This document shows, piece after piece, positions 31,646-45,506 of a DNA stretch of 64,000 nucleotides. A program made the translations under genes and the position numbers. How positions within the stretch are numbered: position 1 is the stretch's first letter; every line of letters begins with the position of its first letter. This DNA is from an uncultured Flavobacteriales bacterium (lineage in GTDB: Bacteria; Bacteroidota; Bacteroidia; Flavobacteriales_G; Salibacteraceae). The stretch lies in assembly GCA_937121175.1 (NCBI GenBank), contig CAKZKD010000028.1, positions 124,001 through 188,000 of the forward strand, in the 5' to 3' direction. The notes under the pieces were generated by a model. The model had not been told where the DNA came from. It did not search any database and worked only from the letters and a program-made list of their open reading frames with translations.

Positions 31646-33418
31646 ATGAGCATTAAAGGTGGAGAATTCTTAATCAAAGAAACAGAGGCGAAAAACATAT
31701 TTATTCCAGAAGAGTGGGATGAAGAACAAAAAATGATTGCTCAAACGTGTAATGATTTTTTAGAGCAGGAAGTATTTCCAAACTTAGACCGGATAGATGC
31801 TATGGAAGAAGGTCTTATGCCTTCGTTGCTCGAAAAAGCTGGCGAATTAGGCATGCTCAGTGTTTCTATTCCCGAAGAATATGGTGGTATGGCAAAAGAC
31901 TTTGTTACGGGAATGTTGGTTACAGAGGTGACTGGAGCTGGTCATTCATTTGCGGTTGCTTTTTCTGCCCATTCTGGTATTGGAACATTACCTATCCTCT
32001 ACTACGGTAATAAGGAACAAAAAGACAAGTACATTCCTAAACTGGCAACTGCCGAATGGAAAGCTTCTTACTGCCTAACGGAACCTAGCTCAGGTTCGGA
32101 TGCGAACTCTGGCAAAACAAAAGCTACCCTCACCGAAGACGGAAAAAACTACGTGCTCAACGGCCAAAAAATGTGGATTACCAACGGTGGTTTTGCGGAC
32201 GTTTATACCGTTTTTGCCAAAATAGACGATGACGAAAACCTATCAGCATTTATCGTTGAACGCGATTATCCAGGCATCTCTTTTGGTGCAGAAGAAAAGA
32301 AAATGGGCATTAAAGGTTCTTCTACGGTTCAAGTGTTTTTTAACGACTGCAAAGTACCTGTAGAGAATCTACTTTCAGAACGAGGCAAAGGTTTTAAAAT
32401 AGCCTTGAACATCCTGAACATTGGCCGAATTAAGTTGGCCGGAGCTTGTTTGGGCGGATGTAAAAAAGGCATTGACATGTCGGTTAACTATACTAACGAA
32501 CGTAACCAGTTTGGCAGACCTATTTCTAAATACGGTGCTATCCGTCATAAAATTGCCGAACAAGCTATTCAAACCTATGTTTTAGAATCTGCGCTGTACC
32601 GATGTACACGAGACATGGGCAATGCAATTAAGCAACTCGAAGCCGACGGCATGGAACACGGAAAAGCACTTTTGAAAGGTGTGGAACAGTTTGCTGCTGA
32701 GGCCGCAATTCTTAAAGTATTGGGTTCTGAAGTAACTGATTACGTTGTCGATGAAGGTGTTCAGATATATGGCGGAATAGGCTTCTCTGCCGAAGCACCT
32801 ATGGACCGTGCTTACCGCGATGCGCGTATCAATAGAATTTTTGAAGGCACCAACGAAATCAACCGTATGCTGATTGTAGATATGCTCCTCAAAAAAGCCA
32901 TGAAAGGCGAATTAGATTTAATGGGCCCCGCTATGAAAGTAGCCGATGAACTGATGTCTATTCCTGATTTCTCTGAACCGGGGGATGCCTTGTTTGAACG
33001 CGAAAAAGGCTATATCCAAAACTTTAAAAAATCGGTGCTTATGGTGGCCGGTTCTGCTGCCCAAAAGCTAATGATGACATTGGCAAAAGAGCAGGAAATA
33101 TTGACCAACATTGCCGACATGGCAATATGGACTTACGCTGCCGAAAGTGTCTTGCTGCGAGTAGAAAAACTAGCAGGAATGAAAGGCGAAGAAAACGTTC
33201 AAGAGCAAATTGCTATGGTACAAACGTACATTTACGATGTTGCCGATAAAATCAATAAAGCGGGAAAAGACGCACTCAATTCATTTGCCGAAGGCGATGA
33301 ATTGCGCATGCAACTCATGGGCATAAAACGTTTTACCAAGGTGCAACCGTTTAATCCAAAAGTGGCTAGGCAACGTATTGCACTGAAGATTATTGGGGGG
33401 AATAAGTATTGTTATTAA
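31646..33418 (+). CDS. fadE: Acyl-CoA dehydrogenase (FadE-type, long form)
   Basis: FAD-dependent enzyme of the first beta-oxidation step. The 590-residue sequence carries the ACAD N-terminal helical domain, the FAD/substrate motif CLTEPSSGSDANSGKT, MWITNGGFADVYTVFAKI, the NERNQFGRPISKYGAI segment, and the C-terminal YGGIGFSAEAPMDRAYRDARINRIFEGTNEI region (quoted in part: QIYGGIGFSAEAPMDRAYRD) with the catalytic Glu context FEGTNEI. An additional C-terminal domain of about 180 residues makes it the Bacillus FadE-like long type. It is the last gene of the operon, followed by a terminator. Confidence 0.94.
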   Translation: MSIKGGEFLIKETEAKNIFIPEEWDEEQKMIAQTCNDFLEQEVFPNLDRIDAMEEGLMPSLLEKAGELGMLSVSIPEEYGGMAKDFVTGMLVTEVTGAGHSFAVAFSAHSGIGTLPILYYGNKEQKDKYIPKLATAEWKASYCLTEPSSGSDANSGKTKATLTEDGKNYVLNGQKMWITNGGFADVYTVFAKIDDDENLSAFIVERDYPGISFGAEEKKMGIKGSSTVQVFFNDCKVPVENLLSERGKGFKIALNILNIGRIKLAGACLGGCKKGIDMSVNYTNERNQFGRPISKYGAIRHKIAEQAIQTYVLESALYRCTRDMGNAIKQLEADGMEHGKALLKGVEQFAAEAAILKVLGSEVTDYVVDEGVQIYGGIGFSAEAPMDRAYRDARINRIFEGTNEINRMLIVDMLLKKAMKGELDLMGPAMKVADELMSIPDFSEPGDALFEREKGYIQNFKKSVLMVAGSAAQKLMMTLAKEQEILTNIADMAIWTYAAESVLLRVEKLAGMKGEENVQEQIAMVQTYIYDVADKINKAGKDALNSFAEGDELRMQLMGIKRFTKVQPFNPKVARQRIALKIIGGNKYCY

Positions 33419-34182: not shown

Positions 34183-34569
34183 AATACTTGTTTTTAGTTT
34201 AACAAATCATTGACAATGGTAGGAAAAAAAAAGAAACCTCAAACAACATTTATATAAAGGCATCTATTTTATTGATGAAGGTCAGTATTTTTTTTACAAG
34301 CGCATAAAACCTTTACATTAAATTGAAATTCATTTCTCAATTTGTACGCGGTTTTAGTTATTTAATTCTGACTTTAGAATTTTTTCCCTTTAGGACATCT
34401 AGCCAATGTTATTGCAAATCAAAGACAGCTTATGTTGTTTCGAGCTTCAAGTGAGGTCAAACAAGCTCGTGCTCGATTGCATCACGTTCTATAAAAATTA
34501 TAGTCGTCTTTTCTATTCTTATTTTTTGCTGCTTGGTTTTGCTCAAAAATTGAATACACTTGAATTGTC
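34183..34569. other. Gene-free AT-rich interval with repeat material
   Basis: These 387 bp between the lipoprotein gene and the truncated DUF2867 copy contain no credible ORF. Features seen are a hairpin with arms CGAGCTT (34441-34447) and AAGCTCG (34463-34469), and the first copy of a short repeat at 34465-34502 that recurs at 34768-34808. Confidence 0.6.
34465..34502. repeat. Short dispersed repeat, copy A
   Basis: Begins GCTCGTGCTCGATTGCATCA and continues CGTTCTATAAA..AATTATA. It matches copy B at 34768-34808 at about four in five positions. The two copies flank the truncated DUF2867 fragment. Confidence 0.55.
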
Positions 34570-34869
34570 ATGAAAGTAAGACTAGAGTCCCTTCCCCAAA
34601 CCGGAGGCATTAAAACTACCCTTCCAAAAATTGATTTTGCCGATACTTTTTCGACCACCAATCACCAAGATAGTTTGGCAGAAATATCGAGACTAGTATT
34701 TGCAAAAGTTCCGAAATGGATAGAGTATTTAATGCGACTCCGGAATTCTTTGGTAAAAGTATTCCCCGCTCGTGCGCGATTGTATCGCGTTCGACAAACA
34801 AATTATAAATTACCAAAACCTTCCGCTCTACTTATATTTGATATAAGTGCATTTCAACAAACAGTATGA
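34570..34869 (+). pseudogene. Truncated duplicate of the DUF2867 gene
   Basis: The first 65 codons (34570-34764) duplicate the start of the intact DUF2867 gene at 36648. Over the 153 nt from 34612 to 34764 there are only three differences from 36690-36842 (98% identical), while the first 42 nt differ at seven positions. After 34764 homology stops abruptly and the frame runs on for 34 unrelated codons (PARARLYRVRQTNYKLPKPS) through repeat copy B. The fold-forming two thirds of DUF2867 are missing, so the product is unlikely to function. Confidence 0.8.
34768..34808. repeat. Short dispersed repeat, copy B, at the duplication breakpoint
   Basis: Begins GCTCGTGCGCGATTGTATCG and continues CGTTCGACAAACAAATTATA, similar to copy A at 34465-34502. 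It starts three bases after the last base shared with the intact DUF2867 gene, so it marks the junction of the rearrangement. Confidence 0.6.
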
Positions 34870-34882
34870 AATCAATTGAGTA

Positions 34883-35473
34883 ATGGAAGAAGAGTTTAGA
34901 GCATTTGTATCCAGTTTTCCTTTTCTGCGGCCTGATGAAACCGATATCATTGTCGAGCACACCAACTTAAAGGAATTTAAAAAAGGTGATGTGTTACTGA
35001 GAGAAGGAATGATAAGTAAATCTTGTCATGCTGTGGTTCGCGGTTGCGTTAGAGAATATTATATTAAAGACGGAATTGAAAAAACCATCGCCTTCTACAC
35101 CGAAGGCGACGCGGTAAATTCTTTTTCAAGCTACAGCAACCAAACCCCTTCTAAACACTTTTTAGAATGTGCCGAAGATTGTCTGCTCACAGTCGGCAGC
35201 CAGTCGTTGATTGATGAAATGTGCGACCGCATTCCTAGACTTGCAGAGTTTATAAAATTTGAAGTAGAAAAAGATGCAGGCAAACTCCAAGAGCGTATGG
35301 CCTCTTTTATGACTTCTTCTCCGGAAGAACGTTTTAATGATTTAATGGAAAAAAATCCTAGCCTCATTAACCGCGTACCTCAACATCAAATCGCAAGTTA
35401 TATTGGCGTTACTCCAGAATCGTTGAGCCGTATCCGAAAACGAATTCTTCAAAAAGAACAACAAAAAAAGTAG
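34883..35473 (+). CDS. Crp/Fnr-type transcriptional regulator
   Basis: The 196-residue protein has an N-terminal cyclic-nucleotide-binding fold (FKKGDVLLREGMISKSCHAVVRGC, IAFYTEGDAVNSFSSY) and a compact C-terminal winged helix ending in VPQHQIASYIGVTPESLSRIRKRI. The recognition helix resembles the usual TxETLSRxxxx pattern. Residues for cAMP binding are not conserved, as is typical for this Bacteroidota group, and no Fnr cysteine cluster is present. It lies 13 bp after the truncated DUF2867 ORF. Its ligand and targets are unknown, although the intact DUF2867 gene 1.2 kb downstream may originally have belonged with it. Confidence 0.85.
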   Translation: MEEEFRAFVSSFPFLRPDETDIIVEHTNLKEFKKGDVLLREGMISKSCHAVVRGCVREYYIKDGIEKTIAFYTEGDAVNSFSSYSNQTPSKHFLECAEDCLLTVGSQSLIDEMCDRIPRLAEFIKFEVEKDAGKLQERMASFMTSSPEERFNDLMEKNPSLINRVPQHQIASYIGVTPESLSRIRKRILQKEQQKK

Positions 35474-35475
35474 CG

Positions 35476-36459
35476 CTATTCGTTTATTGACTTCCCTCCT
35501 TTGACAATCATCCATAAGGCGTAAAGTACCTCACCCAAAATCATAGGAAGAATAAAAACAGGTTCTATTAACGCTGCAAATGCTAGTGGATTTGCTACCA
35601 CCAATATTCCAATATATTGAATTAAATACCCTACACCTGCAGCTATGAGCAAGGACTTTATAAGAATATTTACCCATTTCTTACCGCCTTCATTGTTATA
35701 TAGAAACCCAAGGCAAATCAAGTGTACGCCAAAGGCTATTAAACCTATTCCCCAAATGTGATTGAACATTGCAACACTTCCAGCTATATGATGACCAATT
35801 GCAACTCCCAAAATGGCTGTGTAAATCAGTCTAAAAAGACTCGTTAACTTAGAGAGTTTTGGTTGTTCTTTTTTATGGTATTTGAGCATGCAAATAGAAA
35901 CCACTGCATCCAATATAAAAATACCTATTAGGCAAATACTTGCAGTTAAAGTTCCTAATGACGGAATTGCCAATCCAGCAAGAACCGCCATAAATATTAG
36001 GCTCCAACCATTTACCAACGCAGTTTTGCGCTGAATTGTCATTTTCTTTCTATCGGCATTGTTAGTTAGGGTATCTTCTTTTACTGTTTTCATTTTGTTT
36101 CTTTTTAAGGGTTCTATTTTCTTTTTTTCTTGTGTTCCAATTTTCGTCTCTAATATTATTTCTGTTTCCAATTTTTCTAATTGAGGTATTTCATTTAAGT
36201 ACCTTCCTTCACCAACATTGGCCACTAAAGGAGTTGATTTCATAAGAGACAAATCCGATTGTACCTCTACCAATTCTTGTTTATTGTTAGCGTTTTCGTT
36301 CTTTTCCTTTCTGGCTTTTTTTGCTGCCTTATTTTTATCACCAAGGTTTGAGGTTATATGATATCCCTTCATATGCACTCTTTTTTCAATGGTGCAAGAA
36401 GACATCAGGAGGAGGAAATTGATAGTGAATAAAAATGCTATTGTACTTGTCTGCTTCAT
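35476..36459 (-). CDS. Lipoprotein with C-terminal multi-pass membrane region
   Basis: The start is set at the ATG at 36459 because it gives a lipoprotein signal (MKQTSTIAFLFTINFLLLMSSC), after which comes TIEKRVHMKGYHI, a motif common after the lipobox in Bacteroidota lipoproteins. Residues 35-150 are highly charged and probably unstructured. The last 160 residues contain five hydrophobic segments (WSLIFMAVLAGLAIPSLG, TASICLIGIFILDAVVSICM, LIYTAILGVAIGHHIAGSV, IGLIAFGVHLICLGF, SLLIAAGVGYLIQYIGILVV, LAFAALIEPVFILPMILGEV), the latter resembling DUF4386-like proteins. I cannot assign a role. Confidence 0.6.
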   Translation of the reverse strand: MKQTSTIAFLFTINFLLLMSSCTIEKRVHMKGYHITSNLGDKNKAAKKARKEKNENANNKQELVEVQSDLSLMKSTPLVANVGEGRYLNEIPQLEKLETEIILETKIGTQEKKKIEPLKRNKMKTVKEDTLTNNADRKKMTIQRKTALVNGWSLIFMAVLAGLAIPSLGTLTASICLIGIFILDAVVSICMLKYHKKEQPKLSKLTSLFRLIYTAILGVAIGHHIAGSVAMFNHIWGIGLIAFGVHLICLGFLYNNEGGKKWVNILIKSLLIAAGVGYLIQYIGILVVANPLAFAALIEPVFILPMILGEVLYALWMIVKGGKSINE

Positions 36460-36647
36460 ACATTCTGTGCTTGTAAAATTTACTGAGACAAAGGTGATTT
36501 GGCTGCATTTCAAATCCATTGACTTAAGATAAGAGTTGAAAAAAATTAGCGATAAAATCCCCCTTGGTTAAAAGCGAAGAGTAGATAAAATATAGTTTTG
36601 AAATACACGCCACCTATATGTTACGGTGGTGGCATTCTATTAAAATC

Positions 36648-37133
36648 ATGAAAGTAAAACTCGAACCCATTCCCAAAACCGAAGGCATTAAAACTACCCT
36701 TCCAAAAATTGATTTTACCGATACTTTTTCGACCACCAATCACCAAGATAGTTTGGCAGAAATATCGAGACTAGTATTTGCAAAAGTTCCAAAATGGATA
36801 GAGTTTTTAATGCGACTCCGGAATTCTTTGGTAAAAGTATTCGGGCTAAAAACAGAGAAACCAGCAGACTTTCATGAAAACTTTAAAGTAGGTGGTTATG
36901 TTGGTTTCTTCAAAATATTCAGCATTGAACCTAATGAAATTATAATGGGTGCAGATGATAAACACCTCAATTTTAGAGTAAGCATTTATAACTCAGGTGA
37001 GGCTACATTCAACATAAAAGTGACCACCTTGGTTGAATACAACAACAGCTTTGGGCGTTGGTATATGGCTATTGTAAAACCCTTCCACCATATAGTGGTT
37101 AAGGTTATGGTGAAGCAGGCGTATAAAAGTTGA
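36648..37133 (+). CDS. DUF2867 family protein
   Basis: The start is the ATG at 36648, matching the start of the duplicated fragment at 34570. The 161-residue product has the DUF2867 pattern: IDFTDTFSTTNH, a VPKWIEFLMRLRNSLVKVFGLK helix (in parts VPKWIEFLMRLRNSLV, KVFGLK), FFKIFSIEPNEIIMGADDKHLNFRVSI, and the C-terminal LVEYNNSFGRWYMAIVKPFH followed by HIVVKVMV. DUF2867 proteins are uncharacterised and resemble SRPBCC/lipid-binding folds. A near-identical truncated copy lies 2 kb upstream, beyond a Crp/Fnr regulator and a minus-strand membrane protein. Confidence 0.8.
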   Translation: MKVKLEPIPKTEGIKTTLPKIDFTDTFSTTNHQDSLAEISRLVFAKVPKWIEFLMRLRNSLVKVFGLKTEKPADFHENFKVGGYVGFFKIFSIEPNEIIMGADDKHLNFRVSIYNSGEATFNIKVTTLVEYNNSFGRWYMAIVKPFHHIVVKVMVKQAYKS

Positions 37134-43843: not shown

Positions 43844-44440
43844 TTGGCAACTAGTGCACTATCCTTGGAAGAGCTTATTAAAAAAATAAAAGGACAAATA
43901 GACCTTAGCCCAGATGCTGAAGAATACTTGTATTTAATCTCTAAAGAAAGGTTGTTTCACAAAGGGTCTGTTTTACTGCGCGAGGGGCAACCCGTAAAGA
44001 AGGTGTACTTTGTAACTGATGGTTGCCTAAGGTCTTATTGCATTGATAAAACCGGCAAAGAACATACCCTCCAATTTGCCATTAAAAATTGGTGGATAAG
44101 CGACTACATTGCCATTCATAACAAAGAAACGGCTACGCTCTCGGTCGAATGTCTTAAGGACTCTACCGTTATTGAATTTAACGCCGCCAAGCTAAATGAA
44201 ATGCTAGCTTTATTTCCAGAATACGAACCATTTCAGCGCTTTATTTTAGAACGCCATGTGGTTAGTTTACACAAACGAATATTGAACCAATTGCAGCTAA
44301 CTGCTGCCGAACGCTACGATTTGTTCATTGAACAATACCCTAACATTGAGCAATCTACCCGTAACTACCACATTGCCTCATACCTTGGCATAACCCAGGA
44401 AAGCCTGAGTCGAATTCGAGTCGAAAAAGCAAAAAAATAG
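43844..44440 (+). CDS. Crp/Fnr-type transcriptional regulator
   Basis: The frame has no ATG at its beginning; the most upstream plausible start is TTG at 43844, giving 198 residues. The N-terminal effector domain (LFHKGSVLLREGQPVKKVYFVTDGC in parts, LQFAIKNWWISDYIAIHN) and the C-terminal winged helix (NYHIASYLGITQESLSRIRVEKAKK) are like those of the regulator at 34883. No Fnr-type cysteines are present. It is followed by an oxidoreductase and a DJ-1/PfpI gene, whose promoter region contains an inverted repeat that could be its target. Confidence 0.83.
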   Translation: MATSALSLEELIKKIKGQIDLSPDAEEYLYLISKERLFHKGSVLLREGQPVKKVYFVTDGCLRSYCIDKTGKEHTLQFAIKNWWISDYIAIHNKETATLSVECLKDSTVIEFNAAKLNEMLALFPEYEPFQRFILERHVVSLHKRILNQLQLTAAERYDLFIEQYPNIEQSTRNYHIASYLGITQESLSRIRVEKAKK

Positions 44441-44451
44441 TTTTCTTACCA

Positions 44452-44489
44452 TAGGTCAATTTCTGCCCAAAAGACCTACTCTACTTTTG
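44452..44489 (+). promoter_or_regulatory. Promoter and possible operator upstream of the oxidoreductase/DJ-1 pair
   Basis: TACTTTTG at 44482-44489 fits the -7 consensus TAnnTTTG and leaves a leader of about 27 nt to the ATG at 44523. Just upstream, TAGGTC (44452-44457) and GACCTA (44473-44478) form a spaced inverted repeat with a 15-bp gap, suitable for a Crp/Fnr-type dimer such as the one encoded immediately upstream. Confidence 0.45.
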
Positions 44490-44522
44490 CCTCATATAAG
44501 TGAAACCATAAGTAGAAAGAGC

Positions 44523-45506
44523 ATGAAAGCACTGCAGTTAAAAGCATACGGAGAAATAAACGAAAGTTTAATCTTCAACGAAATTCCAAAACCGAACATG
44601 GGGCCCAACGATGTAATGATTGAGGTAAAAGCGGCAGCCATTAACCCAATTGACAAAAGCATAATTCTTGGGAACTTACAAAGTTTACTTCCTATTCCAC
44701 TACCATGTACCTTGGCCTATGATGTAAGTGGTACTGTGGTTGAAAAAGGAAACGACGTAGGTAATTTTGAAATTGGTGATTTGGTGCACTCACGTGTTCC
44801 TCAAGAACAAATGGGCACACTTGCAGAGTACGTTGCCGTCACCAATAGCGCGGTATCAAAAAAACCAGGTAATGTCTCTTTTGAAGAAGCGGCAAGCATT
44901 CCTTTAGCCGGACTTACTGCAATGCAATCCCTCGAATATGCTCAGCTCAAAGAAAACGATAGAATACTTATCCATGCTGGTTCAGGTGGTGTTGGTAGCT
45001 TGGCCATTCAATACGCAAAATCAAAAGGTGCATTTGTTTACACCACCACAAGCACTGCCAACGTAGAGTGGGTCAAGGCCTTAGGTGCAGACCGAGTAAT
45101 TGATTACAAAACTGAAGATTACAAAACCATTGCAAATGATGTTGACATTGTATTCGACACCCTAGGTAAAGCCTACACTACTGAATCCTTTGAGGTGGTA
45201 AAACCCGGTGGTAAAGTAGTGAGTATTGTTGGTCCGTTGGATGAAGAAAGTGCTCAAATGTTTGGGATGACTGACTACAAGCTGTCTGATGAAATTGCGA
45301 CATTAAGTAGAGAAAAGAATGCTGCGTACAAATTCATTTTCATGCACCCCAATGGAGCTCATTTAGAAATAATAAAAGCGTTAATCGAGGATGAAAAAAT
45401 GAAGCCTATTATCGATAAGGTATATCCATTCGAGGAAGCAATAGAAGCGTTCAAACACCTAGCCTCTGGCAGAGCAAAAGGAAAAATTGTAATCAAAATA
45501 AATTAG
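44523..45506 (+). CDS. NADP-dependent quinone oxidoreductase-like MDR protein
   Basis: The start is the ATG at 44523 (MKALQLKAYGE), typical for the family; the upstream TTG extension is not convincing. The 327-residue medium-chain dehydrogenase/reductase has the N-terminal GroES-like domain (VKAAAINPIDKSI, LAYDVSGTVVEKG) without zinc-ligand cysteines, the NADP-binding motif ILIHAGSGGVGSLAIQYAK and the C-terminal GRAKGKIVIKI. It is expected to reduce quinones or reactive enones and protect against electrophiles. A DJ-1-type gene follows after 29 bp, suggesting a detoxification pair. Confidence 0.87.
   Translation: MKALQLKAYGEINESLIFNEIPKPNMGPNDVMIEVKAAAINPIDKSIILGNLQSLLPIPLPCTLAYDVSGTVVEKGNDVGNFEIGDLVHSRVPQEQMGTLAEYVAVTNSAVSKKPGNVSFEEAASIPLAGLTAMQSLEYAQLKENDRILIHAGSGGVGSLAIQYAKSKGAFVYTTTSTANVEWVKALGADRVIDYKTEDYKTIANDVDIVFDTLGKAYTTESFEVVKPGGKVVSIVGPLDEESAQMFGMTDYKLSDEIATLSREKNAAYKFIFMHPNGAHLEIIKALIEDEKMKPIIDKVYPFEEAIEAFKHLASGRAKGKIVIKIN

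Follow-up and report, generated by a model that had tools for sequence, protein, structure and literature searches.

The window analysed here, a stretch of 64,000 nucleotides (nt) from an uncultured Flavobacteriales bacterium (positions 124001-188000 of contig C28 in a 3.73-Mb genome, G000), carries the 5' end of a DUF2867 gene twice, as a direct repeat of 197 nt with 95% identity and a spacing of 2078 nt. The second copy opens an intact gene; the first is a fragment that breaks off at the foot of a repetitive extragenic palindromic (REP) hairpin, and between the two stand genes for a Crp/Fnr-family regulator and a DUF4386 protein, tail to tail and 2 nt apart. Comparison with three congeners (G001, G002 and G003) and two genomes of other genera (G004 and G012) suggests that this two-gene module was probably placed by a junction at the REP foot together with homologous recombination inside DUF2867. 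The locus comprises the following features:

31646-33418, plus strand: upstream syntenic anchor, with 92% identity to the gene ahead of DUF2867 in G003, and presumably an acyl-CoA dehydrogenase-like gene
34465-34489, plus strand: REP1, an older, degenerate REP-like copy 80 nt before the ATG of the fragment (covariance model 39.8 bits, E 1.8e-9, as a model-building sequence)
34568-34764, plus strand: DUF2867 5' fragment, nt 1-195 of the gene and the 2 nt ahead of its ATG, with no continuation
34570-34869, plus strand: open frame of 99 codons, 65 of them DUF2867, then REP2 (read as PARARLYRVRQ...) and about 74 nt of unrelated DNA
34764-34795, plus strand: REP2 hairpin, CCCCGCTCGTGCGCGATTGTATCGCGTTCGAC, found by pattern search (covariance model 47.7 bits, E 6.3e-12, as a model-building sequence)
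34883-35473, plus strand: Crp/Fnr-family regulator, 196 residues (cNMP_binding 39.7 bits, cut-off 27.5; HTH_Crp_2 21.5 bits, below its cut-off of 27)
35476-36519, minus strand: DUF4386 protein, 347-residue frame (52.8 bits, profile 124-210 of 210, covering residues 248-341 only)
36646-36842, plus strand: second repeat copy, the start of the intact DUF2867 gene
36648-37133, plus strand: intact DUF2867 gene, 161 residues (Pfam DUF2867 123.2 bits, profile 3-142 of 142)

A search of the genome with PF11066 finds matches solely at the fragment and the intact gene, the fragment aligning to profile positions 3-55 at 24.8 bits, just below the cut-off of 27. Counted from the ATG, the copies differ at 10 of 195 nt (positions 11, 15, 18, 19, 22, 28, 35, 70, 144 and 158): seven differences in the first 42 nt are followed by three in the next 153 (98.0% identity). 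These counts and coordinates agree with a preliminary description made from the sequence letters, which had proposed a recent partial duplication; the duplication is supported, and the fragment holds only the 5' part of DUF2867. Ahead of the ATG the copies are alike for two bases only (219 of 500 shuffles align equally well), and neither upstream region has homology above shuffles to G003 or G001. Sought after REP2, DUF2867 from nt 196 onward left no trace (206 of 500 shuffles align equally well); insertion of a REP into a full second DUF2867 gene was accordingly rejected. The 99-codon frame, running from the fragment through the hairpin, probably lacks function, a functional protein being unlikely.

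The right-hand break of the fragment is the 5' foot of REP2, a coincidence that the preliminary description had missed. At the joint, TATTC continues into CCCGCTCG as against GGGCTAAA, an overlap of at most 1 nt (base 34764 could belong to either the fragment or REP2), and the joint is therefore not homologous; around nt 195 of the intact gene we found no REP match, hence the joint does not have a REP on both sides. The probability that the break coincides with a REP foot by chance, calculated post hoc for nine sites ±3 nt in 3.73 Mb, is about 1.7e-5. REP2 is predicted to form a DNA hairpin (z -1.8; 8 of 200 shuffles fold equally well), whereas the predicted DNA fold of the REP1 stretch differs from the family hairpin. 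The DNA behind REP1 has no detectable likeness to that behind REP2 (215 of 500 shuffles align equally well), and the DNA before REP1 has no homology above shuffles to G003.

The differences between the copies form a mosaic, seven of the ten being confined to nt 11-35 of the gene. Any seven of ten differences cluster within 25 nt with p = 0.0009 (200,000 simulations), and nt 1-35 differ from nt 36-195 with Fisher p = 0.0003, at a cut picked post hoc. This step in identity is sharp, and local rate does not explain it: the intact gene differs from its G003 orthologue at 10 of 42 nt (24%) and 40 of 153 nt (26%), a flat divergence that shows no generally faster evolution at the 5' end. With each difference placed on a branch using three outgroup genes, the fragment branch has 4 changes in the 35 nt of positions 1-35 vs 3 in the 160 nt of positions 36-195 (p = 0.02), and the intact-gene branch 3 in 35 vs none in 160 (p = 0.005). 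Since early differences fall on both branches, decay of the fragment alone does not account for the pattern, and the earlier suggestion of recombination rather than decay is borne out by this and by the clustering; 'recent' holds for nt 36-195, and does not hold for the more diverged first 35 nt. The mosaic is consistent with a recombination or conversion tract that stopped short of the 5' end, where the two alleles had diverged by about 17%; because homology ends at nt 195, the right end of such a tract would be hidden, leaving its left end visible.

At the syntenic place in G003 the order is the anchor gene, a 104-codon frame, a REP (L018:7161-7187) and one full DUF2867 gene (82%), with neither a Crp/Fnr regulator nor a DUF4386 gene. 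There the REP lies 67 nt before the DUF2867 ATG, vs 80 nt for REP1 and the fragment, a spacing by which the fragment most likely sits at the gene's old place, the new DNA extending from REP2 to about 36647. A second DUF2867 gene of G003 (63%) lies 24 kb away, in the context of G001's only copy (71%); G002 has none. The regulator's closest relative among the 35 genomes searched is in G012 (74%), followed by one in G004 (61%), with congeners at 42% or less. In G012 this relative and a DUF4386 gene (154.9 bits) again form a tail-to-tail pair, and no DUF2867 was found in the 13 kb around it; the 13 kb around the G004 relative gave no DUF4386 match. The preliminary description had left open whether the intervening 2 kb was inserted or inverted: the recurrence of the tail-to-tail pair in G012, with no DUF2867 found beside it, favours insertion of a module, as does the single gene without the module in G003, and inversion is rejected.

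A DUF2867 gene beside a Crp/Fnr regulator, an arrangement that the same description proposed looking for in relatives, is not the rule there: by tblastn, neither the regulator nor the DUF4386 protein was found in nine DUF2867 loci of relatives (eight places, five of the loci with only about 1.5 kb of flank), G004 offering a loose exception that we return to below. Two full-length genes at these positions, which would have argued for an old duplication truncated in place, were sought and not seen, G003 having one; a single relative is thin evidence. A DUF2867 search of genome contigs for related loci returned no relative, and an anchor-gene search returned 80 loci at 63-74% identity, mostly from Bacteroidetes groups, none of which matches the REP pattern.

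We next turn to the REP family itself. A pattern scan of the genome finds four close copies, namely REP1, REP2 and a pair that lies in a 91-bp tandem on contig C36, where a looser pattern adds a third, inverted copy; patterns of fixed loop length missed the G003 copy, which a free loop length finds. A covariance model built from ten copies, on a small, hand-picked alignment of 9 distinct rows, detects the family in each of the four genomes examined from the genus, with nine matches in G000 at E up to 10 and seven at E < 0.002 (about seven clear copies). Hairpin pairing is conserved, with 84% of cells paired and a covariation of 0.222 vs 0.098 in shuffles (0 of 500 shuffles each). The family foot has no GTAG, and many copies have a run of C there; the exact 27-nt core of REP2 has no match in viral contigs. 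Elsewhere in G000, two similar elements of about 120 bp (L161 and L165; G000:C1:130858 and C1:61741), compared by eye, each contain two inverted REPs, with a short hairpin within the loop of the second, and resemble a REPIN-like miniature element of the family. Another dispersed repeat family is seen at the right flank of L146 (G002:C25), a stretch with matches of 75-81% at six places in G000 and at one in G003.

The same REPs surround a gene on C36 for a REP-associated tyrosine transposase (RAYT; NF047646 92.6 bits, cut-off 80; Y1_Tnp PF01797 32.2 bits, cut-off 23; match to TnpArep, PDB 4er8): two lie past its 3' end and one, inverted, falls within the opening codons of the longest frame, ahead of the conserved domain, so that the true start is probably later. 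By eye, its motifs are NHIH, FWRH (not WQ) and YVHQNP, and those of the RAYTs in G001 and on contig C2 of G000 are NHVH, WRH or WRN, and YIHQNP. Past the C36 gene, 60 nt of the RAYT 3' end (58 of 60 identical) come after the first REP and break off at the C-run foot of the second, giving a tandem of a 91-bp REP-plus-RAYT-tail unit (98%) that starts at a REP foot and ends inside a gene. On C18 of G001, about 80 nt of the RAYT 3' end lie between two REPs, the break falling about 8 nt ahead of the next hairpin core; on C9 of G002, where we found no RAYT gene, a 57-nt RAYT 3' fragment ends a few nt before a REP that has no C-run. Each of these three fragments aligns better than all of 1,000 shuffles, and three of four RAYT or probable former RAYT loci, the exception being that on C2, thus have a fragment ending at or near a REP. 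The G002 and G001 places (L142, G002:C9:84168-84397, and L130, G001:C18) are apparently the same chromosomal place, the neighbouring sequence being alike by eye; G001 has a RAYT gene there, and G002, without one, keeps the REPs and the 57-nt remnant.

These observations can be joined in a course of events that we consider probable, its order and direction of transfer being read from the comparison. The ancestral locus would have been arranged as in G003, with the anchor gene, a REP and one DUF2867 gene. A ready-made tail-to-tail pair of Crp/Fnr and DUF4386 genes, with a REP ahead and a DUF2867 allele, or part of one, behind, would have entered through recombination inside DUF2867. At the homologous joint, a crossover and a conversion tract over about nt 36-195 would have left the older allele difference in the first 35 nt; at the other, the 5' foot of the REP would have been fused non-homologously to nt 195 of DUF2867, and the left-hand remnant at 34568-34764 would be the scar. 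This second joint may have been made by RAYT cutting of a single-stranded REP or by hairpin breakage and template switching.

Several points weigh against this course. No close strain with an empty site was found among the relatives: the G003 genome is only 83% complete and its DUF2867 protein 18% different, and the G001 gene stands among other neighbours. G004 has, 3.9 kb from the 61% regulator relative (L180:4563-9621), a distant DUF2867-like gene (31%), by which the regulator and DUF2867 may have been neighbours earlier, in a loose old association of both families. The DUF4386 protein matches that of G012 at 32% over just 91 residues, a match so short that the case for a common origin of the gene pair depends mainly on the regulator and on the order of the genes; with its family match confined to the last part of the profile, the DUF4386 half is the less certain. 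Only seven sites make up the cluster of differences, and nt 35 was picked as the cut once the data had been seen. For the hairpin, two of five pair measures are not above shuffles (both-sides-changed pairs, 158 of 500; further pair types, 433 of 500), and the second RAYT of G000 (C2, L129) has no REP match with the covariance model. The joints in G001 (about 8 nt off) and G002 (no C-run foot) are looser, so the joint does not recur at a single fixed site. Finally, the flanks of ten other REPs gave no gene fragment ending at a REP, in a search that scored 40 candidates per genome without a background control, could detect only recent copies, and missed G000's own DUF2867 when queried with the short G003 gene end.

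The main rival is a tandem duplication in place followed by deletion, which we think unlikely: a 2078-bp unit, starting at the foot of REP2 and reaching as far as nt 195 of DUF2867, would have been set head to tail, and the left copy would later have lost the Crp/Fnr and DUF4386 genes. The length of the unit equals the repeat spacing, the C36 tandem provides a precedent, and REP junctions of tandem duplications are known from the literature; however, a second deletion of about 1.9 kb would be needed, joining the remainder near nt 35 of another DUF2867 allele, and the DNA behind REP1 and REP2 shows no detectable likeness. Somewhat less credible again is an old duplication of two full DUF2867 genes, the first of which gained a REP and lost its 3' part while conversion homogenized the 3' part of the fragment. 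The older 5' divergence (7 of 42), the near identity of the rest and the second DUF2867 gene of G003 would all find their place in such a history, which is opposed by the missing sequence from nt 196 onward past REP2, by the single gene at the syntenic place in G003, and by the different gene context of G003's second copy, common to G001's only one.

A bolder variant, to which we give a little less credit still, makes the RAYT itself a gene mover: cutting a REP foot and joining it to a cut inside a nearby gene, it would produce circles or tandem units of a REP and a gene fragment, 91 bp long on C36 and 2078 bp in the window, and a unit bearing the Crp/Fnr and DUF4386 genes would integrate via its captured DUF2867 fragment, leaving repeat, mosaic and joint all at once. 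That a recent whole-gene copy simply decayed, with the 5' cluster due to chance or pseudogene drift, is highly improbable; six of the seven fragment-branch changes alter the protein, as decay would have it, but the clustering and the three early changes of the intact gene, with none in nt 36-195, speak against it. A mis-joined repeat is a negligible prospect, even though the genome is a draft (39 contigs, 2.58% contamination): ten sites separate the copies, and their flanks differ on both sides, within a contig of 284 kb.

The favoured course, with its REP-foot junction and recombination inside DUF2867, has partial likenesses in known systems. In integration through short homology (Campbell-type, by single crossover), the insert comes to lie between direct repeats of the target gene, one of them truncated. 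The target-gene direct repeats here, and the near-identity tract beside older differences, resemble such integration and gene conversion; unlike Campbell-type integration, the other joint is a REP foot. Shyamala, in 1990, reportedly described REP-bounded duplication and amplification junctions in enterobacteria. Classical REPs of enterobacteria and pseudomonads have a GTAG or GTGG foot and more than 100 copies, neither of which is seen here. In starving E. coli, REPs were the site of 22 of 90 new junctions, and in 14 of these the shared sequence was too short for homologous recombination (PMC3161906). These junctions share with ours a joint at a REP and too little common sequence for homologous recombination; ours differs as a natural scar in Bacteroidetes, with a REP on one side only and a mosaic repeat alongside (PMC3161906).

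Closer in kind is subclass 2.6 of TnpAY1 from Bacteroidetes, for which the portion of the source at hand describes atypical hairpins without a GTAG foot around the gene, copies elsewhere in the genome, and the motifs NH[LIV]H, WQ and YIH[QN]NP, in sequence descriptions and with no cleavage data (PMC6006769). By that description, the C36 RAYT comes close to these motifs with NHIH and YVHQNP (YIHQNP in the other two RAYTs) and agrees in surrounding hairpins without a GTAG foot and in hairpin copies elsewhere in the genome; the differences are the few copies (about seven clear), the mostly C-rich foot, WR instead of WQ, and a REP copy that forms the edge of a gene fragment. RAYT cutting next to REPs has been shown in vitro, for example for those of Stenotrophomonas and Marinomonas (PMC8266576). 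PMC8266576 and PMC6006769 present RAYTs as domesticated transposases that probably mobilise REPs and bacterial interspersed mosaic elements (BIMEs), the REPtrons seemingly not moving as a unit. A literature search over titles and abstract beginnings returned no description of REP-bounded gene fragments in Bacteroidetes, and one on DUF2867 or DUF4386 nothing beyond an osteopontin paper. REP-linked junctions and conversion tracts being already known, the locus is a well-preserved but fairly ordinary rearrangement scar. Fragments ending at or near REPs, here and at the RAYT loci of the genus, form a natural record of REP-linked break re-joining; should RAYT turn out to have made the joints, REPs would act in small gene captures as well as in their own spread.

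The genes of the module have further resemblances. Among 34 relatives, the DUF4386 protein has weak matches in five genomes, the best at 38% over 97 residues, and its N-terminal part is lipoprotein-like by eye. A gene beside the C36 RAYT (L009:470-1423), without a Pfam match, shares with it, again by eye, a lipoprotein-like start, a K-R-x-x-x-x-G-Y-H motif and hydrophobic end segments. Another Crp/Fnr-like regulator lies in the window at 43844-44440; the adjoining gene at 44487-45506, which we take to be quinone oxidoreductase-like, resembles the neighbour of the regulator's relative in G004.

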